Of a stretch of 57,563 bases of DNA, positions 27,376 through 51,009 are shown piece by piece (positions within the stretch are counted from its first letter, which is position 1; each line of letters opens with the position of its first letter). The position numbers and the translations under genes are program-made. The notes under the pieces were generated by a model. It did not search any database. It was given only the letters and a program-made list of their open reading frames with translations, and was not told the DNA's origin. Source of the DNA: Thermodesulfovibrionales bacterium (lineage in GTDB: Bacteria > Nitrospirota > Thermodesulfovibrionia > Thermodesulfovibrionales > Dissulfurispiraceae); NCBI GenBank assembly GCA_030017995.1, contig JASEGS010000007.1, forward strand, positions 1 through 57,563, read 5' to 3'.

Positions 27376-27445
27376 TGCAAAGCCTCCCTCTGCTTAAGAT
27401 TAGCTTCATGATACCTCATGGGTATAATAGGATTCAAGTTATGAC

Positions 27446-27648
27446 CATAATCCGCAATCAAGCAAAGCAGGCACGGCTTCAAAGTCTTTATCAATGCGAT
27501 AAGATTATTAAATGCCTGTTTATGCTGCTGAATGCAAAGGGTGATATTGAAATTGCCTCTAATGGAGGAGGGATCGGCGCCAAGGTATCGCTGATAAAGC
27601 CTTTTCACCCATGCCTGCTTTGTTTCTGTAAATGTTTGGCTACGGATT
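27446..27648 (+). repeat. Family-1 structured repeat, copy 2
   Basis: The left end motif CATAATCCGCA (27446) mirrors the right end TACGGATT (27641-27648). Inner arms AAAGCAGGCA and TGCCTGCTTT are exact complements, as are TTTATCA and TGATAAA and the GCGATA/TATCGC pair. The core matches copies 1 and 3. A direct repeat, GGATTCAAGTTATGA, is found at 27430-27444 and 27644-27658; the second copy overlaps the right end motif. It could be a target duplication or part of the element. It fills about half of the 384-base gap between gltX and rpsO. Confidence 0.8.
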
Positions 27649-39296: not shown

Positions 39297-41567
39297 ATGA
39301 ATCTTCAGGATGGGCTTATCAGTGAGCTGGCAGAATTATGTGGCATTATCAATGAATATTGGGACATCTTTGGCAAAAGGCATGAAACCTCAATAGAAAC
39401 CCAAAAAGCTATTCTCAGAGCGATGAAGATGAGGATTGACTCTGAGGAAGACATTAGAAGGGAAATAAACAAAAAGAAAACCTATCAATGGAACAGGCTT
39501 ATTGAGCCGGTCAAGGTAATATCAGTAAGGGAACAGCCGTTAAAAATCCATATGTTTGTGCCTCTGAAAGAAGATGAAGAGGCAACTCTCTTGTGGTCTA
39601 TTGAAGACGAGCATGGACAAAGAGATGATTTTATAATCGCATATCAGGAAGCGACCATTTTGGAGGAGCAATGGATAAACGGCAAAAGGCATTTAAAGAT
39701 TGAGCTTTCGGATAAAACTGCCAGAGGCATCGGTTACTATTCGATAAATGTAGAATGCAGACGCACAGGGAATATATTGTCAGGCAAATCAAGGCTGATA
39801 ATAACCCCTGATGCCTGCTATATACCGCCCTCTTTAATTGGAGATTGGAGATCGCAGATTGCAGGATCGGAAAATCCGAAATCAAAAATCCAAAATCAAA
39901 AATCAAAAACATGGGGGCTTTCCATAAACCTTTATGCTGTTGCCTCTGATGCTAATTGGGGCATTGGCGATCTCGGCGACCTTAAAAAGATTATCCAATG
40001 GATTGCTGATTTGAAAGGTAGTTTTATCGGGATTAATCCTCTCCACGCTATTGCCAATAAGAAACCTTTTGGTATAAGTCCATATTCGCCTCTAAGCAGG
40101 CTGTATAAAAACTTTGTTTATCTAAACATGGAAGATATTACAGAGGTGGCAGAATCTGATGACCTAAGGGCAATTATTGAATCCAATGAATTTAAAAGTG
40201 AATTAGAAAGAGTTAAAATGCAGCGGCTTATTGATTATGAGGCTATAGCTTCATGTAAAGAAAGGATTCTCAGGCAGGCATTTGATATTTTTTTAGCAAG
40301 GCACTATTTACCGGGCTCTGAGCGCGCCAAAGATTTCAATAAATATCTGTCAGAAGAGGACGATCTGCTTGATTCCTTTGCAACATATATGGCGCTGAGG
40401 AGACATGAGGTAAATAATGGAAGAGGGGAGGACTGGCACGGGTGGAGTGAAGAATATCGTGACCCTCAAAACAATGCTGTCAAAGAGTTCAAAAAAAACA
40501 ATGATAAAGAAGCGCTCTATTATAAATATGTACAGTGGCTGATTGACAGGCAATTGGAAAAGATTTCTCATATAGCAGAAAGATCAGGGATGCATGTTGG
40601 TATATATCATGATCTCGCTATAGGTTCTGTTGGCTGTGGAAGCGATGCGTGGATGGCTCAGGATATGCTTGCATACGGGATGTCTGTTGGAGCGCCTCCA
40701 GATGATTTTAATTTAGAGGGACAGAATTGGGGATTCCCTCCAATTATACCTGAAAAATTAAAAGAAACAGGATATGAGCTTTTTATACAGATCATTAGAA
40801 AAAATATGAAACATTGCGGCGCCATCAGAATAGACCATGCCCTCGGCATGTTCAGACTGTTCTGGATACCTGATGGGATGAAGGCTGACTCAGGAGCTTA
40901 TGTAAGTTGCCCGGCAGAAGACCTTCTCAGGATCATAGCTCTTGAGAGCATGAGAAATAGGACAATGGTTATAGCAGAAGACCTTGGCACTGTGGGAGAC
41001 AATGTGCGGGAGATGCTTAATAGTTTCAATATGCTTTCGTACAGGCTTCTATATTTTGAGAGAAATTATCCTGACTCTGCCTTTTTACAACCTGACAAAT
41101 ATCCTGTTATGGCGCTGTGCGCTGTAACTACACATGACCTGCCGACAATATACGGCTGGTGGGTCGGGCGTGATATCGAAGTTAAAAAAAGACTGGGTAT
41201 CTATTCCGGTGAAGATATATTGCAGAGAGATATTGAAAATAGAGAAAGAGATAAGACATTACTCCTGAATGTACTCCAGTCACAAGGGCTCTTAAAACTT
41301 AACTCCAAACTCCAAACTCCAAACTCTATGACTCCAGAATTATGTCTTGCCATTTATGAATACCTTGCCCGCACTCCCTGCAGGCTCTTGTCTGTCAGCC
41401 TGGATGATGCCATTGGTGTAATTGACCAGCAGAATATGCCCGGCATAACAGATTCTTATCCAAGCTGGATGCAGAAGACGCCGGTTATGCTTGAGGAATT
41501 TATTGACAACAAGCGGTTTAATAACCTCTCCCTTATGCTTTGTAGAAATAACCGATGCCTGATTTAA
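39297..41567 (+). CDS. malQ: 4-alpha-glucanotransferase (amylomaltase, GH77), long form
   Basis: 756 residues, the long type with an N-terminal beta-rich extension (1-200). GH77 motifs: D-L-A-I-G-S-V-G-C-G-S-D-A-W, P-P-D-D-F-N-L-E-G-Q-N-W-G-F-P-P, the nucleophile region I-R-I-D-H-A-L-G-M-F-R, the acid/base in V-I-A-E-D-L-G-T-V and T-T-H-D-L-P-T. It transfers alpha-1,4-glucan segments. Two loops derive from low-complexity repeats: residues about 181-205 (AAATCCAAAATCAAAAATC type) and 661-680 (AACTCCAAACTCC type). Both frames stay open, so the enzyme is probably intact. Confidence 0.93.
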   Translation: MNLQDGLISELAELCGIINEYWDIFGKRHETSIETQKAILRAMKMRIDSEEDIRREINKKKTYQWNRLIEPVKVISVREQPLKIHMFVPLKEDEEATLLWSIEDEHGQRDDFIIAYQEATILEEQWINGKRHLKIELSDKTARGIGYYSINVECRRTGNILSGKSRLIITPDACYIPPSLIGDWRSQIAGSENPKSKIQNQKSKTWGLSINLYAVASDANWGIGDLGDLKKIIQWIADLKGSFIGINPLHAIANKKPFGISPYSPLSRLYKNFVYLNMEDITEVAESDDLRAIIESNEFKSELERVKMQRLIDYEAIASCKERILRQAFDIFLARHYLPGSERAKDFNKYLSEEDDLLDSFATYMALRRHEVNNGRGEDWHGWSEEYRDPQNNAVKEFKKNNDKEALYYKYVQWLIDRQLEKISHIAERSGMHVGIYHDLAIGSVGCGSDAWMAQDMLAYGMSVGAPPDDFNLEGQNWGFPPIIPEKLKETGYELFIQIIRKNMKHCGAIRIDHALGMFRLFWIPDGMKADSGAYVSCPAEDLLRIIALESMRNRTMVIAEDLGTVGDNVREMLNSFNMLSYRLLYFERNYPDSAFLQPDKYPVMALCAVTTHDLPTIYGWWVGRDIEVKKRLGIYSGEDILQRDIENRERDKTLLLNVLQSQGLLKLNSKLQTPNSMTPELCLAIYEYLARTPCRLLSVSLDDAIGVIDQQNMPGITDSYPSWMQKTPVMLEEFIDNKRFNNLSLMLCRNNRCLI

Positions 41568-41594
41568 CCATAGTTATTCATAAATATATTGATA

Positions 41595-41723
41595 AAGGCA
41601 GGACATAGTATTTTCGCTCATTCTCGGAAGGCATCCAAGCCTTCCTCCGAGGCTTTCGCTTCCTCGGACATCCTGTCCTCGCTTACCACCGAAAGAAACC
41701 GCTCAAATACCATGCCCTGCCTT
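41595..41723 (+). repeat. Family-2 three-stem repeat, copy A
   Basis: About 129 bases between malQ and the GGDEF gene. The closing stem pairs AAGGCAGG with CCTGCCTT and GTATT with AATAC. A first inner hairpin (CTCGGAAGGC, loop ATCCAA, GCCTTCC and CCGAG) is near-identical in all copies. A second inner stem pairs CTTTCG with CGAAAG and GGACA with TGTCC around TCC. Copies B and C keep the loops but change the stem bases in step. Confidence 0.85.
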
Positions 41724-41844
41724 GTGGATAAATTTTATGAATTAAATTGGCTAAATATTTCCATTGATAATTTTCTAAAAAATTCATAAAATTTAAGAGT
41801 ATACAGGAATAATTACGTGGGTGTTTTATGTTTGGGAAGGTAAA

Positions 41845-44238
41845 ATGAATATCTTGTCACTTTTTTCATTTTCCGCCTTTTGGATCTATTTGTATCTCGG
41901 GTTCTATACCATCCGCTTAGACCATAGATCAAGATTAAACTGGATATTTTCAAGTTTATGCCTTGTGTTTGCCGTCTGGGCATTCTCATATACCTTTTTT
42001 TATTCAGCGCCGGATAAAGAAAGCGTATGGTTCTGGTATAGGATATCTTCAATTGGCTGGTCTTCCTTCCCTGCTATATTTATGCATTACAGCCTTGTAT
42101 TGACAGAAAGGGAAAAGACATCGGACAGACCCTTGGTATATCCTTTTCTTTATCTCCCAGCATTAACTTATATTTATAAGGGATCAACAGGGACGCTGCT
42201 TGTTAAGGACTTTGTTTATCAGGGACTGGGTTGGTGTGAAGTAGCTGCCTCTGATTCAATCTGGTTTTGGTCTTATGTTGTGTATTATTCAGGTTTTATA
42301 CTTGGCAGTTTGTTCCTTGTGCTTCATTGGGGACAGAAGACGGAGTCTCTAAGAAAGAAAAAACAGGCAAAAATAATTCTGGCCACGAGCATCCCAACGC
42401 TCATAGGGAGTGCTGTAACAGATACAATATTGCCTGCTTTAGATTTATATATCATGCCTTCAGTGGCTGTAATCCTGATTCTTGGTTGGATATTCGGGAT
42501 ATGGTATTCAATATCAAGACATAAACTTATGTCCCTGACTCCTTCAATTGCTGCTGATGAAATTGTTTTCAGGATGGTAGGCATGCTGGTTTTAGTTGAT
42601 CCAGAGGGGAGAATAATCAAGGTGAACCGTCAGGTCAAGGAGTTGCTTGGTTATGAAAATGATGAAATAATTGGCAGGCCTTTCAGCAATATAGTTGTCG
42701 AAGGAGACCTTGTTGATGAAGCTCTGGCAAAACTAAAGAAAAATCCAGATCAAACTGTGGTTTATGAACTGGTATACAAAGGGGAAAATAATATGGAAGT
42801 GCCTGTCTCTGTTTCCTTCTCTGCCGCAAGTGATAAATACGGCGAAATGCTCGGCACTGTTGTTGTTGGTCGTGATATAAGACAAATGAAACAACTCCAG
42901 CAGGAAATCAAGGAAAGGCGGAGGATGGAAGAGACCATCACATATCAGGCATACCATGATGCTCTTACAGGTCTGTCCAACCGTGTGCTTTTCAATGACC
43001 GTCTCGCCTTGTCACTCGCACAAGCGCATAGGGATAAGAGAATGTTAGCAGTTATCTTTCTCGATCTCGATAATTTTAAGTCTATCAATGACTCCATGGG
43101 TCATTCTGGCGGGGATCAGGTGCTGCAGAGCACGGCAAATCTTCTGAGGAACATCTTCAGGGAGAGTGATCTTGTTGCAAGGATGGGGGGAGATGAGTAC
43201 GCAATTCTGCTGCCTAATATTCTTCATGAAGAGGATGTATCAAGGGTTGCCCATAAGATACTTTCTGCTTTCAGGCAGCTCGTGGTAATCAGTGGGCATA
43301 AGCTTCACATAAGCACCAGCATTGGTATCAGCATTTATCCAAGAGATGGCGAAAGCCCGGAAATGTTGCTTAAAAATGCAGATACAGCCATGTATCATTC
43401 CAAGGAGCTTGGAGGGAATAACTATCAATTCTATAACGACGCAATCAATATAAGAGCACTTGATCAGGTGATGTCGGGCAGCAGGCTGCTCCATGCTATT
43501 GAGCATGGCGAATTGGCGCTTTGCTACCAGCCGCAGATTGATATTAATACAGGGGAGGTTGTTAGTGTTGAATCCCTTGTAAGATGGAAACATCCAGAAC
43601 TCGGCATGCTCTATCCAAGACAATTTCTTCATGTGGCTGAGAAGACAGGGCTTATGCCTCCTCTTGGAGAATGGGTATTGAAGACAGCATGTATTCAGAA
43701 TAAGGCATGGCAGGAGGCTGGGCTGCTGTCTGTGCCTGTAACAGTAAACTTTTCAGTATTGCAATTGCAGCAGCCAAATATAATGGAAGTCGTCAGAGAT
43801 ATATTGAATCTATCATCCCTGAAACCTGAATTTTTGGTGTTTGAGATTACAGAAAATCTGGCGATGTTGGATATGGAGGCTACGATATCAAACCTTCAAA
43901 AATTGAATGAAACTGGCATTCAATTTTCTATAGACAATTTTGGCATAGGATATTCTTCGTTGGATTATCTCAAGAAATTTCCTATTCAGGCAGTGAAGAT
44001 AGACAGATCTTTTATCGGGAATGTAACTACATATCCTGATGACGCCACGATTGTATCTGCTGTAATCTCCCTCGCAAAGAGTCTTAATCTTAAGACCATT
44101 GCAGAGGGCGTTGAAACAGATGAGCAGGTTGTATTCCTGAAAGCGTGCGGTTGCGATGTAGTGCAGGGTTATCTGATCAGCCCGGCTGTCTTATCCCATG
44201 AAATGGAAAACCTTATGAATAAACGCTTTTTGCATTAA
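41845..44238 (+). CDS. Membrane PAS-GGDEF-EAL cyclic-di-GMP protein
   Basis: About 797 residues. Seven predicted membrane helices (1-230) resemble the histidine-kinase 7TM sensor. A PAS domain (about 235-355) follows. The GGDEF domain has G-G-D-E-Y near residue 448 and an inhibitory-site R-E-S-D five residues before it, so a cyclase with product inhibition is plausible. The EAL domain reads E-S-L-V-R-W near residue 576, and the D-D-F-G-T-G loop is D-N-F-G-I-G near 697, so one metal-binding aspartate is lost and phosphodiesterase activity is doubtful. ATG 41845 with GGAAGG is chosen over GTG 41821. Confidence 0.92.
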   Translation: MNILSLFSFSAFWIYLYLGFYTIRLDHRSRLNWIFSSLCLVFAVWAFSYTFFYSAPDKESVWFWYRISSIGWSSFPAIFMHYSLVLTEREKTSDRPLVYPFLYLPALTYIYKGSTGTLLVKDFVYQGLGWCEVAASDSIWFWSYVVYYSGFILGSLFLVLHWGQKTESLRKKKQAKIILATSIPTLIGSAVTDTILPALDLYIMPSVAVILILGWIFGIWYSISRHKLMSLTPSIAADEIVFRMVGMLVLVDPEGRIIKVNRQVKELLGYENDEIIGRPFSNIVVEGDLVDEALAKLKKNPDQTVVYELVYKGENNMEVPVSVSFSAASDKYGEMLGTVVVGRDIRQMKQLQQEIKERRRMEETITYQAYHDALTGLSNRVLFNDRLALSLAQAHRDKRMLAVIFLDLDNFKSINDSMGHSGGDQVLQSTANLLRNIFRESDLVARMGGDEYAILLPNILHEEDVSRVAHKILSAFRQLVVISGHKLHISTSIGISIYPRDGESPEMLLKNADTAMYHSKELGGNNYQFYNDAINIRALDQVMSGSRLLHAIEHGELALCYQPQIDINTGEVVSVESLVRWKHPELGMLYPRQFLHVAEKTGLMPPLGEWVLKTACIQNKAWQEAGLLSVPVTVNFSVLQLQQPNIMEVVRDILNLSSLKPEFLVFEITENLAMLDMEATISNLQKLNETGIQFSIDNFGIGYSSLDYLKKFPIQAVKIDRSFIGNVTTYPDDATIVSAVISLAKSLNLKTIAEGVETDEQVVFLKACGCDVVQGYLISPAVLSHEMENLMNKRFLH

Positions 44239-44246
44239 CTTAGATT

Positions 44247-44912
44247 ATGTATAAACTACTTTTTATTTTTTATCTTTTTGTTGTTTTATTGACTTCTCAG
44301 GATGCAAACGGCGCTGTCTGGAAATATGCGGATGAATGTTATGGATTGATCAAATCCGGTGAATACGAGACTGTTATAAAGGACTCTAAATTGGTTATCA
44401 GACAGGACAGATGGAACTCAGATGCCTATGCCTGCCTTGCCATGGCTTATTATCTGAGTGACAGAAAGTATCTGGCGATAAAGGCTATGAAAGAAGCTGA
44501 GGACAACATCCCACAGGAAGCTGTTGAGAAGGTGCATGATAATATATGGAATCACCTGCCTGAATTATTAGCAGAAAAAGAATACAGGGACAACTATACC
44601 TTAAGCGGCGGAGCATGCATATTGAGGAATGTCACGTCATTGAGCGGAGCAGGATATTTGGTAATAGGGAATTATTTCAACCCGGTTAATTCGACGATAG
44701 GCAGACATTTGCGTGGCTACAAGTGCGATCCGAATATAAAAGAATGCAAAGAAATTGATCATGTGTGTCCTGATTGCAGCATTAAAGAAGAAGAAGTCAG
44801 GATATTTATAAAGGATTTCAGGATTGTGGAAATACGGAAATTTAAAAATGTTGAGCTTTCAAGAAATATTAGATATGTCAAAAAAATTCTTGAACTTGAG
44901 CAAAAGAAGTAA
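44247..44912 (+). CDS. Exported protein with TPR-like region, function unknown
   Basis: 221 residues. The first 22 form a signal peptide (hydrophobic, ending near A-N-G-A). Residues 25-95 look like one or two TPR-type helical pairs (C-Y-G-L-I-K-S-G-E-Y-E-T-V-I, A-Y-A-C-L-A-M-A-Y-Y-L). The C-terminal half has a cysteine group (C-D-P-N-I-K-E-C-K, V-C-P-D-C) that might form disulfides or bind metal. It follows the GGDEF-EAL gene by eight bases and is probably co-transcribed. It ends exactly where the P-type ATPase gene ends on the other strand. Confidence 0.6.
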   Translation: MYKLLFIFYLFVVLLTSQDANGAVWKYADECYGLIKSGEYETVIKDSKLVIRQDRWNSDAYACLAMAYYLSDRKYLAIKAMKEAEDNIPQEAVEKVHDNIWNHLPELLAEKEYRDNYTLSGGACILRNVTSLSGAGYLVIGNYFNPVNSTIGRHLRGYKCDPNIKECKEIDHVCPDCSIKEEEVRIFIKDFRIVEIRKFKNVELSRNIRYVKKILELEQKK

Positions 44913-47561
44913 TCACTTCATAAAATATCTGATCGCGAATTTTCTCGTTTCCTCTGCTGCGAAGAGTAAAATTGCAAACGGTATCAGGACAAACCACATC
45001 TGAGCTGCAATCGGAGATGTCGCGAATATCGCATTTCCCCATGGGTGATAGACGATAAATAATTGCAATGCAATTTCAAACGCTATTCCGGCGAATATAA
45101 GCTTGTTTGAGAAAAACCCGATGCTGAAAACGGACTCTCTGAATGAGCGGCATGCAAGGACATTGGCTATCTGCGTGATGATTATCGCATTTAGACATGC
45201 AGTAGTCGCCTGCATATAAAGGATATTGTTTGAAGACAGCATCTCGCCCCATTTCCAACCTCCGGAGTTCAGGACATAAAAGAATCCGAACAAACCCGCT
45301 GCTGCCTCGATGGGACCTAAGAATAAGTATGCGCGGCTTAATAATTTGAAGTTTAAAAGCCTTTCTTTCGGGTCTCTCGGAGGCTGTTTCATAAGTCCGG
45401 CTGTCGGCTTTTCCGCTCCGAGAGCAAGCGCAGGGAGCATATCGGTTCCGAGGTCAACCGCAAGTATCTGCATGATCGTCAGCGGCAGTGGAATCTTGAA
45501 AAGAACATAGGCAAGATAAGGCACAATCTCGGGGATATTCGATGAAAATATATAGCTTATAAATTTCCTTATATTCTCATAGACAGTCCTTCCTTCCTCT
45601 ATTGCATTCACAATTGTGGCAAAATTGTCATCGAGCAAAATCATGTCAGCCGTCTCTTTCGCTACATCCGTTCCTGCAATGCCCATTGCTATGCCTATAT
45701 CGGCCTTCTTTAAGGCTGGCGCGTCGTTCACGCCGTCGCCTGTAACCGCAACCCTTTCCCCTTCTTCCTTGAGGATTGATACGACGCGCATCTTATGCTT
45801 GGGCGTCATCCTCGCAAATATGATTTCCTTTTCGGAAAGCTTTTTCCTGAGTTCCCTGTCGCTCATTTTTATAAAATCGTGTCCTTCGATTACAATCGGA
45901 TTTTCTTTAACGAGACCTATCTCTCTTGCGATGGCTGCTGCTGTCCTGCTTCCGTCTCCTGTTATCATGATTATCCTTATTCCTGCTTCGCGGCATTTTT
46001 TTATGGCATTAGGCACTTCAGGCCTCGGCGGGTCTTCGAGCCCGATCAGACCTAAAAATACCATATCCTTTTCAGGTTCTGAATTATGCATTTCGAGTTC
46101 TGAATATGCAAATGAAAGAACCCTTAGCTCTTTGTCCATCGCCGAATGATAGGCATTCGTAATTTCCTCTTTCAGTTTTTCATCAATAGGAATCTTCCTG
46201 TAATTTACCCCGTTAGAAAGCTCATTTCTAACGGGGTGCATCAGGACATATTTGCACAATGGAAGCAAGCTTTCGAGCGCGCCTTTTGTAAAGCCTAATC
46301 TCTTGCCGTCAATAATGTTAACAGTTGTCATTCTCTTTCTCTCGGAATCGAATGGGATCTCCGATATGCGATCAGCGATTAAATCCCCAATGTTTTCCCT
46401 TGCATATTTAAGGAGAGCAGTCTCCGTAGGGTCTCCCTTGTATTGTCCTTCGATAAACTTCGTATTGTTGCATAGATAGGCTGTCTTCATTAAGAGATCG
46501 ATTGTGCTTTGTTGATTATCAAATGTCCATATTTGTTTAACCTCCATTTTGTTTTGAGTAAGGGTGCCTGTTTTATCTGTGCATATCACCGTTACGGAGC
46601 CGAGTGTTTCAACGGATGTCAAGGTCTTTATCAGAGCTTTTTTCTTAGCCATTCTTTGGCTTCCCATTGCGAGTGAGAGTGTAACAGTCGGAAGCAGTCC
46701 TTCAGGCACATTTGCTACGATGATTCCTACTGCAAAGATGAAATTTTCCCAGAAGCTCCTTCCGATGAACTGTCCGATAAAGAAAAAGATAATACCCATC
46801 ACTGCGGCTAAAAAGGCAATAACTCTGGTTGCTTTTACGATCTCTTTTTGCAAAGGACTCAACCCCGCCTCCACAGCGCTCGTGAGACGGGCAATGCGTC
46901 CGAACTCTGTCCGCATGCCTGTGGCAAAAACAACGGCCTTTCCGGAACCGCTCACAACAGCGGTTCCAGCAAAGGCAATGTTTTTACTCTCGATCAATTC
47001 TCCTAAATACGGCTCATGCTGTAACGGCACAGGCTCGGATTCTCCGGTGAGAGGCGCATTGTTGACCGTGAGATAGGTTGTTTCTATGAGTCTTGAGTCA
47101 GCAGGGACTTTATCTCCTTCGGAAAGTATTATCACATCTCCAGGAATAACCTCGCCTGCGGGGATCTCTGTCTCTTTTCCTTCCCTTATCGCTTTCACAT
47201 AAAAAGGCAGGAGGAGTTTCAACTTTCCAATCGCCCTCTCCGCCCTATATTCCTGAATGAAGGTGAATATCGCGTTGATGAATATAACTCCGATTATCGC
47301 GAGGCCGAGAGTGAGCATGCCTTCGCCGGGGTGAAGATATTCGGATAAAAGAGCCAATCCCGCGCCTATCCACAAAAGTATCGCGAGGAAATGCGTAAAT
47401 TGTTTTACGAATCTTATTGACAGGGGAGTTTTCTTTGTCTCTTTGATCTCATTATGCCCGAATTCAGAGAGCCGTTTCTGAGCCTCCTCTTCGCTCAGAC
47501 CGTTTTCGGATGTTACGAGATTTTTAAGGACTTCTTCTTTAGATAGATTATTGATCTTCAT
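44913..47561 (-). CDS. Cation-transporting P-type ATPase (P2 type)
   Basis: 882 residues. The N-terminal cation ATPase domain (G-L-S-E-E-E-A-Q-K-R-L) precedes the actuator T-G-E-S. The M4 motif is N-V-P-E-G-L-L-P, and the phosphorylated aspartate in D-K-T-G-T-L-T is residue 329. M-T-P-K-H-K and G-D-G-V-N-D-A-P-A-L-K complete the core; six C-terminal helices follow. The P-E-G-L motif fits P2 Ca2+ or Na+/K+/H+-type pumps; the ion cannot be fixed. A 29-base perfect-arm palindrome is embedded in frame near residue 442. The universal stress gene is upstream on the same strand. Confidence 0.9.
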   Translation of the reverse strand: MKINNLSKEEVLKNLVTSENGLSEEEAQKRLSEFGHNEIKETKKTPLSIRFVKQFTHFLAILLWIGAGLALLSEYLHPGEGMLTLGLAIIGVIFINAIFTFIQEYRAERAIGKLKLLLPFYVKAIREGKETEIPAGEVIPGDVIILSEGDKVPADSRLIETTYLTVNNAPLTGESEPVPLQHEPYLGELIESKNIAFAGTAVVSGSGKAVVFATGMRTEFGRIARLTSAVEAGLSPLQKEIVKATRVIAFLAAVMGIIFFFIGQFIGRSFWENFIFAVGIIVANVPEGLLPTVTLSLAMGSQRMAKKKALIKTLTSVETLGSVTVICTDKTGTLTQNKMEVKQIWTFDNQQSTIDLLMKTAYLCNNTKFIEGQYKGDPTETALLKYARENIGDLIADRISEIPFDSERKRMTTVNIIDGKRLGFTKGALESLLPLCKYVLMHPVRNELSNGVNYRKIPIDEKLKEEITNAYHSAMDKELRVLSFAYSELEMHNSEPEKDMVFLGLIGLEDPPRPEVPNAIKKCREAGIRIIMITGDGSRTAAAIAREIGLVKENPIVIEGHDFIKMSDRELRKKLSEKEIIFARMTPKHKMRVVSILKEEGERVAVTGDGVNDAPALKKADIGIAMGIAGTDVAKETADMILLDDNFATIVNAIEEGRTVYENIRKFISYIFSSNIPEIVPYLAYVLFKIPLPLTIMQILAVDLGTDMLPALALGAEKPTAGLMKQPPRDPKERLLNFKLLSRAYLFLGPIEAAAGLFGFFYVLNSGGWKWGEMLSSNNILYMQATTACLNAIIITQIANVLACRSFRESVFSIGFFSNKLIFAGIAFEIALQLFIVYHPWGNAIFATSPIAAQMWFVLIPFAILLFAAEETRKFAIRYFMK
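46208..46236. repeat. 29-bp palindrome in frame inside the P-type ATPase gene
   Basis: CCCCGTTAGAAA and TTTCTAACGGGG are exact complements around a five-base centre (GCTCA). It encodes H-P-V-R-N-E-L-S-N-G-V in the nucleotide-binding domain, where relatives have no such stretch. It seems to be a small inserted palindrome that kept the frame. Confidence 0.7.
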
Positions 47562-47576
47562 GTTTGTCTTATGTAA

Positions 47577-47711
47577 AAACAGTCATGGCACAGTATTCTC
47601 GCTCATTCTCGGAAGGCATCCGTGCCTTCCTCCGAGGTTTTCGCCAGCAAGGACATCCTGTCCTTGCCGACTGCCGAAAAAAGCCGCTCAAATACAATGC
47701 CATGACTGTTT
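47577..47711 (+). repeat. Family-2 three-stem repeat, copy B
   Basis: AAACAGTCATGGCA (47577-47590) and TGCCATGACTGTTT (47698-47711) are exact complements. The first inner hairpin is GGAAGGC-ATCCGT-GCCTTCC. The second inner stem pairs TTTTCG with CGAAAA and GCAAGGACA with TGTCCTTGC around TCC. It occupies the gap between the ATPase and the universal stress gene. Confidence 0.88.
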
Positions 47712-47719
47712 AATGCAAA

Positions 47720-48559
47720 TTATCCTTCATGTCGCGGCTTCAGTATTATAAGGTCACATGGCGTTTCCTTCAGCAGGTCCTCTACCGGATTGCCTTTTAG
47801 AACCGAAGACAGCATACTTCTTTCGCTTGCGCCCATTATTATCAGGTCATGCCTTCTTGACGCAGCCTCTATAGTTATGCTCCTCGATGTATGTCCCGGC
47901 GAAAGCCTGCCCTCGAACTCTATCTCGCATTTTTTAAGCTGCTCTATGTAATTGGATATATCTTTCGGCACTCTCTCTTCCCACTGTGCCGGAGTAAGGT
48001 GTATCTCTCCATGAAAGAACTTTGTAATGGGTTTTACGGTATGAAAGATAAAGACCTTTGAATGAAAACCTTGAGCCATCATCCCTGTAAAATACGCCCT
48101 CTCTTTTGCATGATCAATCCTCGCCTTGAGCGGAACGAGTATATCTTTCGGATGCACCCTTCCCATATGCACGACTCTCACAAGCGCGACAGAGCATGGA
48201 AGCTTTAAAGAAAGATTTCTGGCAACAGTCCCCGCGTAAAATCTCCTTTTAATATCCTCTCTCCTCGTGGATGCAAAGACTATGTTGATGCCTTCCTTCT
48301 TCACTATTTTATTTATCTCTTCTACAGGCTCTCCCGTCTCTGTTATGCTTTCGGTTTCTATATTCAGTTTCTCCGCGTCGAGGAACAATCTCTTCATCGC
48401 CTCTTCCGCCTTTTCAAAGCTCGATTTCGTAATTCCCTTTTCGGCAATAAAACAGATATATAATTTTGAGCCGCAGGCCTTTGCAAGATTTAACGCGTAT
48501 CTTGCGGCTATTTCCGAATTGAGATGTTCGTTGACCGCTGTAAGGATTTTTTTGTACAT
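47720..48559 (-). CDS. Universal stress protein, two tandem UspA domains
   Basis: 279 residues. The first Usp domain starts K-K-I-L-T-A-V-N-E-H and ends S-V-A-L-V-R; the second starts D-I-L-V-P-L-K-A and ends with I-I-M-G-A-S-E-R-S-M-L-S-S-V-L-K-G-N-P-V-E-D-L-L, including the G-x-x-x-x-V nucleotide-type loop and C-D-L-I-I-L-K-P. Tandem UspA proteins respond to energy or respiration stress. The gene is bracketed by family-2 repeats on both sides, in opposite orientations, and lies upstream of the P-type ATPase on the same strand. Confidence 0.85.
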   Translation of the reverse strand: MYKKILTAVNEHLNSEIAARYALNLAKACGSKLYICFIAEKGITKSSFEKAEEAMKRLFLDAEKLNIETESITETGEPVEEINKIVKKEGINIVFASTRREDIKRRFYAGTVARNLSLKLPCSVALVRVVHMGRVHPKDILVPLKARIDHAKERAYFTGMMAQGFHSKVFIFHTVKPITKFFHGEIHLTPAQWEERVPKDISNYIEQLKKCEIEFEGRLSPGHTSRSITIEAASRRHDLIIMGASERSMLSSVLKGNPVEDLLKETPCDLIILKPRHEG

Positions 48560-48603
48560 GTCAATTATTAATCCTCATTATTCATAAATTACAATAGCAG
48601 AGT

Positions 48604-48728
48604 GGAAAGACAAAGTTTGGAGCGACTTCGACAGCCCAAGCGTGACACGGATGTCAAAGCGGGCTGTCGTAGCTTCGGAGGAAGGCCGGATGCCTTCCGA
48701 GAATGAAGCGGAAATGCTTTGTCTTTCC
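48604..48728 (-). repeat. Family-2 three-stem repeat, copy C (inverted)
   Basis: GGAAAGACAAAG (48604-48615) and CTTTGTCTTTCC (48717-48728) are exact complements. On the reverse strand the conserved hairpin GGAAGGC-ATCC-GGCCTTCC is present. The second stem is longer than in A and B, CGACAGCCC with GGGCTGTCG, enclosing TGACA-TCCG-TGTCA. It lies between usp and nifS. Confidence 0.85.
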
Positions 48729-48773
48729 AAATAACAAAGTTTATTAATAAAATTGGTTAAACTGCCCTTTCTG

Positions 48774-50764: not shown

Positions 50765-50819
50765 GATTCCTTTTTATCACAAACGGATAGGAGTGTCAAA
50801 TCGCCATGATCATAACTAA

Positions 50820-51009
50820 GGCAAAGCAGGCACGGCTTCAAAGCCTCTATCAATGCGATAAGATTCTTAGATGCCTGTTTATTCTGTTTAATGCAAAGGT
50901 GATTCTGAAGCGCCTCCAAATAGCGGGAGGGTTCGGCGCTGCGGTATCGCTGATAGAGGCTTTTTCATCCATGCCTGCTTTGCCATTATAGGTGCACGGG
51001 CTACGGATT
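50820..51009 (+). repeat. Family-1 structured repeat, copy 3
   Basis: GGCAAAGCAGGCA (50820) and TGCCTGCTTTGCC (50972-50984) are exact complements, and GCCTCTATCA pairs with TGATAGAGGC. The core has ATGCGATAAGATT, TGCCTGTTTATTCTG and TTCGGCGCTG as in copies 1 and 2. TACGGATT (51002-51009) is the right end motif. It occupies most of the divergent nifU-nifA spacer, so promoters of both genes must lie beside or within it. Confidence 0.82.

Follow-up and report, generated by a model that had tools for sequence, protein, structure and literature searches.

What is the three-stem repeat that recurs between genes of a Thermodesulfovibrionales bacterium (Nitrospirota), and why does its fold persist? 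The window is the whole stretch that was analyzed, 57,563 nucleotides of contig JASEGS010000007.1 (assembly GCA_030017995.1), and a first-pass annotation of its letters had described three intergenic copies, A (41595 to 41723), B (47577 to 47711), and C (48604 to 48728, inverted), each with a closing stem, here called P1, around two inner hairpins. The coordinates, the arms, stem 2, and the ATCC and TCC loops were all confirmed in the sequence. A, B, and C are members of one cross-phylum family of interspersed, noncoding structured repeats, and the family is new.

The strongest evidence for the fold is covariation around a nearly invariant unpaired core. Read in the orientation of B, the element runs P1, CGCTCATTCTCG, hairpin 1, CTCCGAGG, hairpin 2, AAnCCGCTC, and P1'. 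The 5' arm of P1 is 18 to 22 bp long and differs from copy to copy, its inner half often reading GGACAYAGTATTT; in hairpin 1 the stem is free to vary and the loop is usually ATCC, and hairpin 2 is very variable in length. Paired bases are free to co-vary, and every column of the core CGCTCATTCTCG is at least 90% conserved across phyla. In an alignment of 41 sequences, 89.4% of the cells were paired, compared with 33 to 47% in slid controls, and there were 275 double-change cells against 50 to 77, with two-sided changes at 33 of the 41 pairs. A set of 117 cross-phylum sequences gave 90.3% paired cells and 1,288 double-change cells against 226 to 291 in controls; this alignment was fitted to the covariance model and therefore leans toward structure, with the effect still four- to five-fold. 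These 117 sequences were picked with a pattern that covers the unpaired core and the base of hairpin 1, which makes the core conservation among them partly a product of how they were chosen; P1, hairpin 2, AAnCCGCTC, and the inner pairs of hairpin 1 lie outside the pattern. In both sets the arms vary together far beyond chance, as the first-pass annotation had proposed, and copies with a mean column identity of 67% still pair at about 90%. Single-strand folding compared with dinucleotide shuffles gave z scores of -4.0 (A), -8.6 (B), and -7.0 (C), none of the 200 shuffles of any copy folding as well as the native sequence. At five loci (L155, L165, L168, L242, and L257) other inserted palindromes (CCCCCTTAATCCCCCTTAACAAAGGGGGA...) have taken the place of the hairpin 2 apex, so nested repeats are tolerated there.

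The family is both numerous and widespread. The covariance model matched A, B, and C in the window (E values of 5e-31, 1e-28, and 4e-20), a similarity search with B found at least 20 related places in the same genome, and the model raised this to at least 27 copies in the 1.7-Mb genome (G000). Further copies had been expected from the letters alone, and they extend to relatives and other phyla. Within the order, 70 of 120 genomes and 48 of 72 genera carry the repeat, as do 46 of 246 evenly drawn Nitrospirota genomes. A pattern scan of GTDB contigs gave, among the matches listed, Nitrospirota, Desulfobacterota, Gemmatimonadota, Latescibacterota, and Parcubacteria/Spechtbacteria, at least five phyla, and the matches from the other phyla show the same junction; a lone Lachnospiraceae pattern match (L212) was not recovered by the covariance model. 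Detected copies per genome reach 96 in a Proteobacteria metagenome-assembled genome (MAG), the highest count, with 47 in a Gemmatimonadetes MAG, 28 in Desulfospira joergensenii DSM 10085, 14 in a Latescibacterota MAG, and 4 to 8 in each Parcubacteria-type genome (Parcubacteria genome size, 0.5 to 0.7 Mb). Most of the multicopy genomes outside Nitrospirota are MAGs, in which single contigs could be misbinned, whereas the Desulfospira is a cultured isolate. Rfam 15 gave no match in the window at the gathering score and none over the copies in eight loci when relaxed to E values of up to 5, which agrees with the earlier view that this is not a named class. A search of 5,426 Escherichia coli genomes with B gave no match, nor did phage records, plasmid records, or a pattern scan of IMG/VR, and no account of the repeat was found in the literature.

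The closing stem had been given as AAGGCAGG/CCTGCCTT in A (41595 to 41602 and 41716 to 41723), AAACAGTCATGGCA/TGCCATGACTGTTT in B (47577 to 47590 and 47698 to 47711), and GGAAAGACAAAG/CTTTGTCTTTCC in C (48604 to 48615 and 48717 to 48728). These arms are present as described, but they are the outer portion of P1, which is really about 19 to 21 bp long with a few mismatches and has a half-conserved inner part, GGACATAGTATTT/AAATACTATGTCC. A and C also extend outward into terminal inverted repeats that the first-pass annotation had not seen. The parts of the three copies are as follows.

41564 to 41567: left flank of A, TTAA, a candidate target-site duplication (right counterpart CTAA, 3 of 4 identical)
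41568 to 41584, plus strand: left terminal inverted repeat of A, CCATAGTTATTCATAAA, 14 of 14 consensus positions of the IS1380-type repeat
41595 to 41613, plus strand: P1 5' arm of A, AAGGCAGGACATAGTATTT
41615 to 41626, plus strand: conserved core CGCTCATTCTCG of A, every column at least 90% across phyla
41623 to 41651, plus strand: hairpin 1 of A, ATCC loop, CTCCGAG on the 3' side
41653 to 41695, plus strand: hairpin 2 of A, CTTTCG/CGAAAG, apical GGAC/GTCC
41699 to 41704, plus strand: conserved core CCGCTC of A
41705 to 41723, plus strand: P1 3' arm of A
41734 to 41750, minus strand: right terminal inverted repeat of A (TTTATGAATTAAATTGG on the plus strand), 14 of 14 consensus positions
41751 to 41754: right flank of A, CTAA
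47577 to 47597, plus strand: P1 5' arm of B, AAACAGTCATGGCACAGTATT
47600 to 47611, plus strand: conserved core CGCTCATTCTCG of B
47608 to 47636, plus strand: hairpin 1 of B
47638 to 47680, plus strand: hairpin 2 of B, TTTTCG/CGAAAA
47691 to 47711, plus strand: P1 3' arm of B (no terminal inverted repeat found outside P1 of this copy)
48568 to 48571: flank of C, TTAA, target-site duplication, a perfect 4-bp match to 48757 to 48760
48572 to 48588, plus strand: terminal inverted repeat of C, TCCTCATTATTCATAAA, 13 of 14
48604 to 48615, minus strand: P1 3' arm of C (element on the minus strand; GGAAAGACAAAG on the plus strand)
48629 to 48669, minus strand: hairpin 2 of C, CGACAGCCC/GGGCTGTCG
48672 to 48709, minus strand: hairpin 1 of C, including its GCTTC/GAAGC base and core ATTCTC
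48717 to 48728, minus strand: P1 5' arm of C (CTTTGTCTTTCC on the plus strand)
48740 to 48756, minus strand: second terminal inverted repeat of C (TTTATTAATAAAATTGG on the plus strand), 13 of 14
48757 to 48760: flank of C, TTAA, target-site duplication

The repeat is mobile, as empty orthologous sites in relatives show. In a comparison with 2.0 Mb of G005, some 20 copies (from G017, G026, and G000) had as their counterpart a gap no longer than 54 nt whose two flanks were both present; the net insertion at these sites is about 125 to 190 nt, and an earlier hairpin is mostly absent. One G012 copy is lacking in two congeners, and at the site of a G017 copy four relatives hold only a simple terminator hairpin. 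This first empty site had suggested insertion into the loops of existing terminators, which was rejected when most of the others proved to have no hairpin; for the same reason P1 belongs to the inserted unit.

One probable route of movement emerged. Further out, a common inverted repeat lies in the flanks of A, C, and some other copies. When 12 high-copy genomes were searched for this repeat, an autonomous 1.65-kb element came to light in G061 that has the ends CCCAGATAATTCATAAA and CCCACTTAATTCATAAA, CTAG at both sides, and a protein that is an IS1380 transposase (NF033539, E value of 8e-123; PF13701, E value of 2e-154). Against the ends of this element, A matches at 14 of 14 positions on both sides and C at 13 of 14 on both (17-bp inverted repeats), with 4-bp flanks of TTAA/CTAA (3 of 4) and TTAA/TTAA, respectively. 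Because of these ends and TTAA-type flanks, A and C, each about 183 bp and without an open reading frame (ORF), are IS1380-type miniature inverted-repeat transposable elements (MITEs) that carry the three-stem structure. For piggyBac, of which IS1380 is taken to be the prokaryotic outgroup, the duplication is usually TTAA, with target variants that include TTAG and CTAA (PMC10813416). Besides A and C, at least 11 copies are enclosed by IS1380-type terminal repeats with 4-bp duplications, a both-side end match (at least 11 of 14) being found in 13 of 205 copies and, per side, in 24 versus 2 expected; L197, L152, and L210 also have a perfect 4-bp target-site duplication. B and about 90% of the copies have no recognizable inverted repeats on both sides, and the copies examined in other phyla are bounded by P1, with no IS1380-like ends. 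The terminal repeat is detectable only in position-anchored flanks, the 13-mer AGTTATTCATAAA being no more frequent genome-wide in G000 than the control. A 67-bp MITE at L430 (1501 to 1567) has the same IS1380-type inverted repeats and lacks the three-stem core; since it has ends without core, the two are separable. A match to a described transposon end was what the first-pass annotation thought would tell against its view; part of the family is indeed probably spread by an IS1380-type transposon, but the core itself is not the transposon end.

Structure outlasts mobility, in that fixed orthologous copies change P1 by compensating steps. L016, L285, and L292 are one unique insertion common to G000, G017, and G026; L016 differs from L292 by one P1 pair, G-C to A-T, which is compensated, and L285 and L016 are 97% identical within the element compared with 78/82% in the flanking genes. 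Similar contrasts were found for L021/L283 (95% versus flanks of 79/83%) and L411/L284 (93% versus 74/75%). Several P1 pairs differ between L185 and L295, each compensated, and in L247/L242 (flanks 90/87%) the P1 arms are well matched in each copy, and the two copies differ by one base pair deleted from both arms. Two further orthologous pairs, L243/L186 and L226/L229, have stems that are wholly different and still paired, a pattern that suggests exchange or templated correction as well. We read the fixed copies, on their sequences, as probably under selection for the fold, with conversion possibly on top. Two unusual copies were also seen. An orthologous copy at L399 in G027 (near 1439 to 1557) is without both inner hairpins and its P1 arms no longer match, while the P1 arms of its full counterpart in G012 are perfect. 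The copy at L249 (6785 to 6942) is made up of a pair of 5' halves in inverted orientation (CGCTCATTCTCGGCGGGC...GCCCGCCGAGAATGAGCG); fold-back replication, or recombination involving inverted copies, would be expected to produce such an arrangement.

In gaps between codirectional genes of Nitrospirota, the repeat is oriented with its neighbors in 78 of 98 cases and opposed in 20 (p 3e-9), its median distance being 13 nt from the stop codon upstream and 22 nt from the start codon that follows. In the window, with gene names read from translations here and below, A is flanked by a 4-alpha-glucanotransferase-like gene and a GGDEF/EAL gene, both on the plus strand; B, itself on the plus strand, by a UspA-like gene and a gene for a P-type ATPase, both on the minus strand; and C by a cysteine desulfurase gene and the UspA-like gene, all on the minus strand. 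Certain operon gaps are occupied in more than one genome, those of the nuo and thi operons repeatedly: the nuoJ-nuoK gap holds the repeat in L014, L058, and L289, and the thiE-thiC gap in L076, L135, L200, and L290. The window also contains a different repeat family (27445 to 27622, 50804 to 50982, and 2849 to 2930) of about 140 to 180 nt, with pieces 79 to 92% identical (...CAAAGCAGGCACGGCTTCAAAG...GATAAGATT...GGAGGGTTCGGCGCTAAGGTATCGCTGATAAAGCCTTTT); similar sequence follows the copy at L015.

The repeat is neither a repetitive extragenic palindromic (REP) element moved by a REP-associated tyrosine transposase (RAYT) nor an intrinsic terminator. A linked Y1-type transposase had been suggested, but none of 34 loci around Y1 genes has an adjacent copy; these genes are common in the order and, at these loci, unflanked by the repeat, and G000, with its 27 or more copies, gave no Y1 match. 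The consensus has no GTAG or CGTC tag, and the element is a junction of about 130 nt. None of 124 copies has six or more T residues in the 8 nt after P1, where the T fraction is 0.33 compared with about 0.30 further out. No gene carried by the repeat or always beside it was found among the copies examined, and no version bears an ORF.

How these observations fit together is a matter of weighing. We lean, tentatively, toward mobile three-way-junction repeats that are partly IS1380 MITEs and are retained in operon gaps for a function of the folded form. IS1380 transposases would, in trans, spread the subset that bears terminal repeats as MITEs, whose terminal repeats would later erode; after landing in an intra-operon gap, the junction would be kept for what the folded form does. 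Terminal-repeat-free copies, including all those examined from other phyla, stand outside this proposed route. We infer a function for the family, most likely, by analogy with what is reported for ERIC, that of a structured intergenic transcript element affecting RNA processing or stability, with CGCTCATTCTCG, CTCCGAGG, and CCGCTC as the putative contact site of a partner. Several observations weigh against this. On the host-transcript strand, A·C mismatches outnumber G·T pairs (227 to 96 and 152 to 70), mostly in P1, the apical helix showing the opposite; outside the apical helix of the cross-phylum set, AC exceeds GT in 27 columns versus 4 (p 3e-5). Selection on a sense RNA should give G·U over A·C, the reverse of what is seen, and mainly for this reason our confidence in a messenger RNA role is tempered, even though base composition, together with mismatches fixed within subfamilies, accounts for part of the A·C excess. 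In other phyla, where copies were few, no orientation bias was seen (2 with, 4 opposed), and the identity between orthologous copies may partly reflect repeated insertion or intercopy exchange. The G000 draft, 97% complete, has no PF13701/IS1380 gene, which is present in 34 of 120 relatives, and the presence of the transposase shows no association with that of the repeat (Fisher p 0.22). A greater stability of the bottom strand as RNA was discarded as an indication, since shuffles show the same difference, a composition effect. The claim of the first-pass annotation that covariation implies selection on the fold, as RNA or as single-stranded DNA, thus stands as far as the covariation goes, which is very strong; the molecule selected may be either of the two.

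Other explanations divide the same evidence differently. Rather doubtful, if plausible, is a reading in which the core CGCTCATTCTCG/CTCCGAGG/CCGCTC in its junction defines a class of folded nucleic acid, either RNA or single-stranded DNA, that has no name so far and crosses phyla; a putative widely shared partner would recognize it, transposons of more than one kind would spread it, and at fixed sites it would be kept because it serves the cell. The fold might instead serve mobility, as single-stranded DNA of the strand opposite host transcripts whose core is recognized by a putative HUH or tyrosine recombinase-type enzyme; pairing would be kept since only folding copies get copied, and the IS1380 repeats would be a later addition in one lineage. 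The wobble asymmetry favors that complementary strand, the other-phylum copies end at P1 without IS1380-like ends, the core is conserved across phyla, and Y1 transposases are weakly commoner in repeat-bearing genomes (51/19/25/25, p 0.013). Fixed orthologous copies nevertheless retain the fold, no gene recurs beside copies and no ORF-bearing version was found, the Y1 loci are without the repeat, and the greater stability of the bottom strand comes from composition; on balance we think this explanation unlikely. Quite unlikely, in our judgment, is that the arms are complementary without selection, as palindromes perfected by hairpin-templated replication or arm-to-arm exchange. The close orthologues with wholly different, paired stems would fit this, as would the L249 copy and the lack of preference for G·T intermediates, and at the G012/G027 site the internally deleted copy has a consensus-like left arm whereas the left arm of the full copy exactly complements the right. 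Templated correction, however, leaves unexplained that the unpaired core is as conserved as any part across phyla. Also against it, the L285/L016 arms are nearly unchanged between genera with about 20% gene divergence, and P1 mismatches persist. An ordinary IS1380 MITE, with the inner hairpins as by-products maintained only through recent copying, would account for the terminal repeats and 4-bp flanks of A and C and for such copies in several genera, but seems very improbable given that some 90% of copies keep the junction without both terminal repeats, that the core occurs in phyla where such repeats were not seen, that a MITE with ends and no core exists, and that pairing is so high among copies this diverged.

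Retention in operon gaps, our preferred reading, would, if the fold is selected after insertion, make the family a clean case of a transposon-borne structure turned to host use, and the currently unannotated repeat would merit an entry in Rfam or a repeat library. Among known systems, IS1380-family MITEs, prokaryotic piggyBac relatives with TTAA-type targets, resemble A and C in their ends, in TTAA/CTAG-type 4-bp flanks, and in having no ORF; they differ in lacking a three-way junction with a cross-phylum core, and most copies of the repeat, including B, are without such ends. ERIC/IRU and YPAL (RU-2) of enterobacteria are about 130 to 170 bp, intergenic, and largely palindromic, their orientation matters, empty and filled sites are known, and ERIC is reported to affect mRNA stability (PMC2229807). 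The present family is like them in size, intergenic site, palindromic nature, orientation, and empty and filled sites, and unlike them in its sequence, its covarying three-way junction, a P1 that differs per copy, and its spread over five or more phyla; the E. coli genomes, where ERIC is abundant, contain nothing that matches B. REPs are 20- to 40-bp palindromes with a GTAG or CGTC tag, and REP/BIME elements, often transcribed, share with the repeat a palindromic nature, a position downstream of genes, and many copies (PMC3733652). The junction of about 130 nt, without tag or RAYT neighbor, sets the repeat apart. Integron attC sites are sequence-variable, structure-conserved palindromes directly behind stop codons, with R and L core boxes and in arrays near intI. 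By description the repeat is like attC in its variable sequence, conserved fold, and position behind stop codons, but its copies are scattered rather than arrayed and its insertion brings no ORF. Small palindromic repeats are usually limited to a genus or family; unlike these, the repeat described here combines a near-invariant core and covarying stems with as many as 96 copies detected in one genome and a range of at least five phyla.

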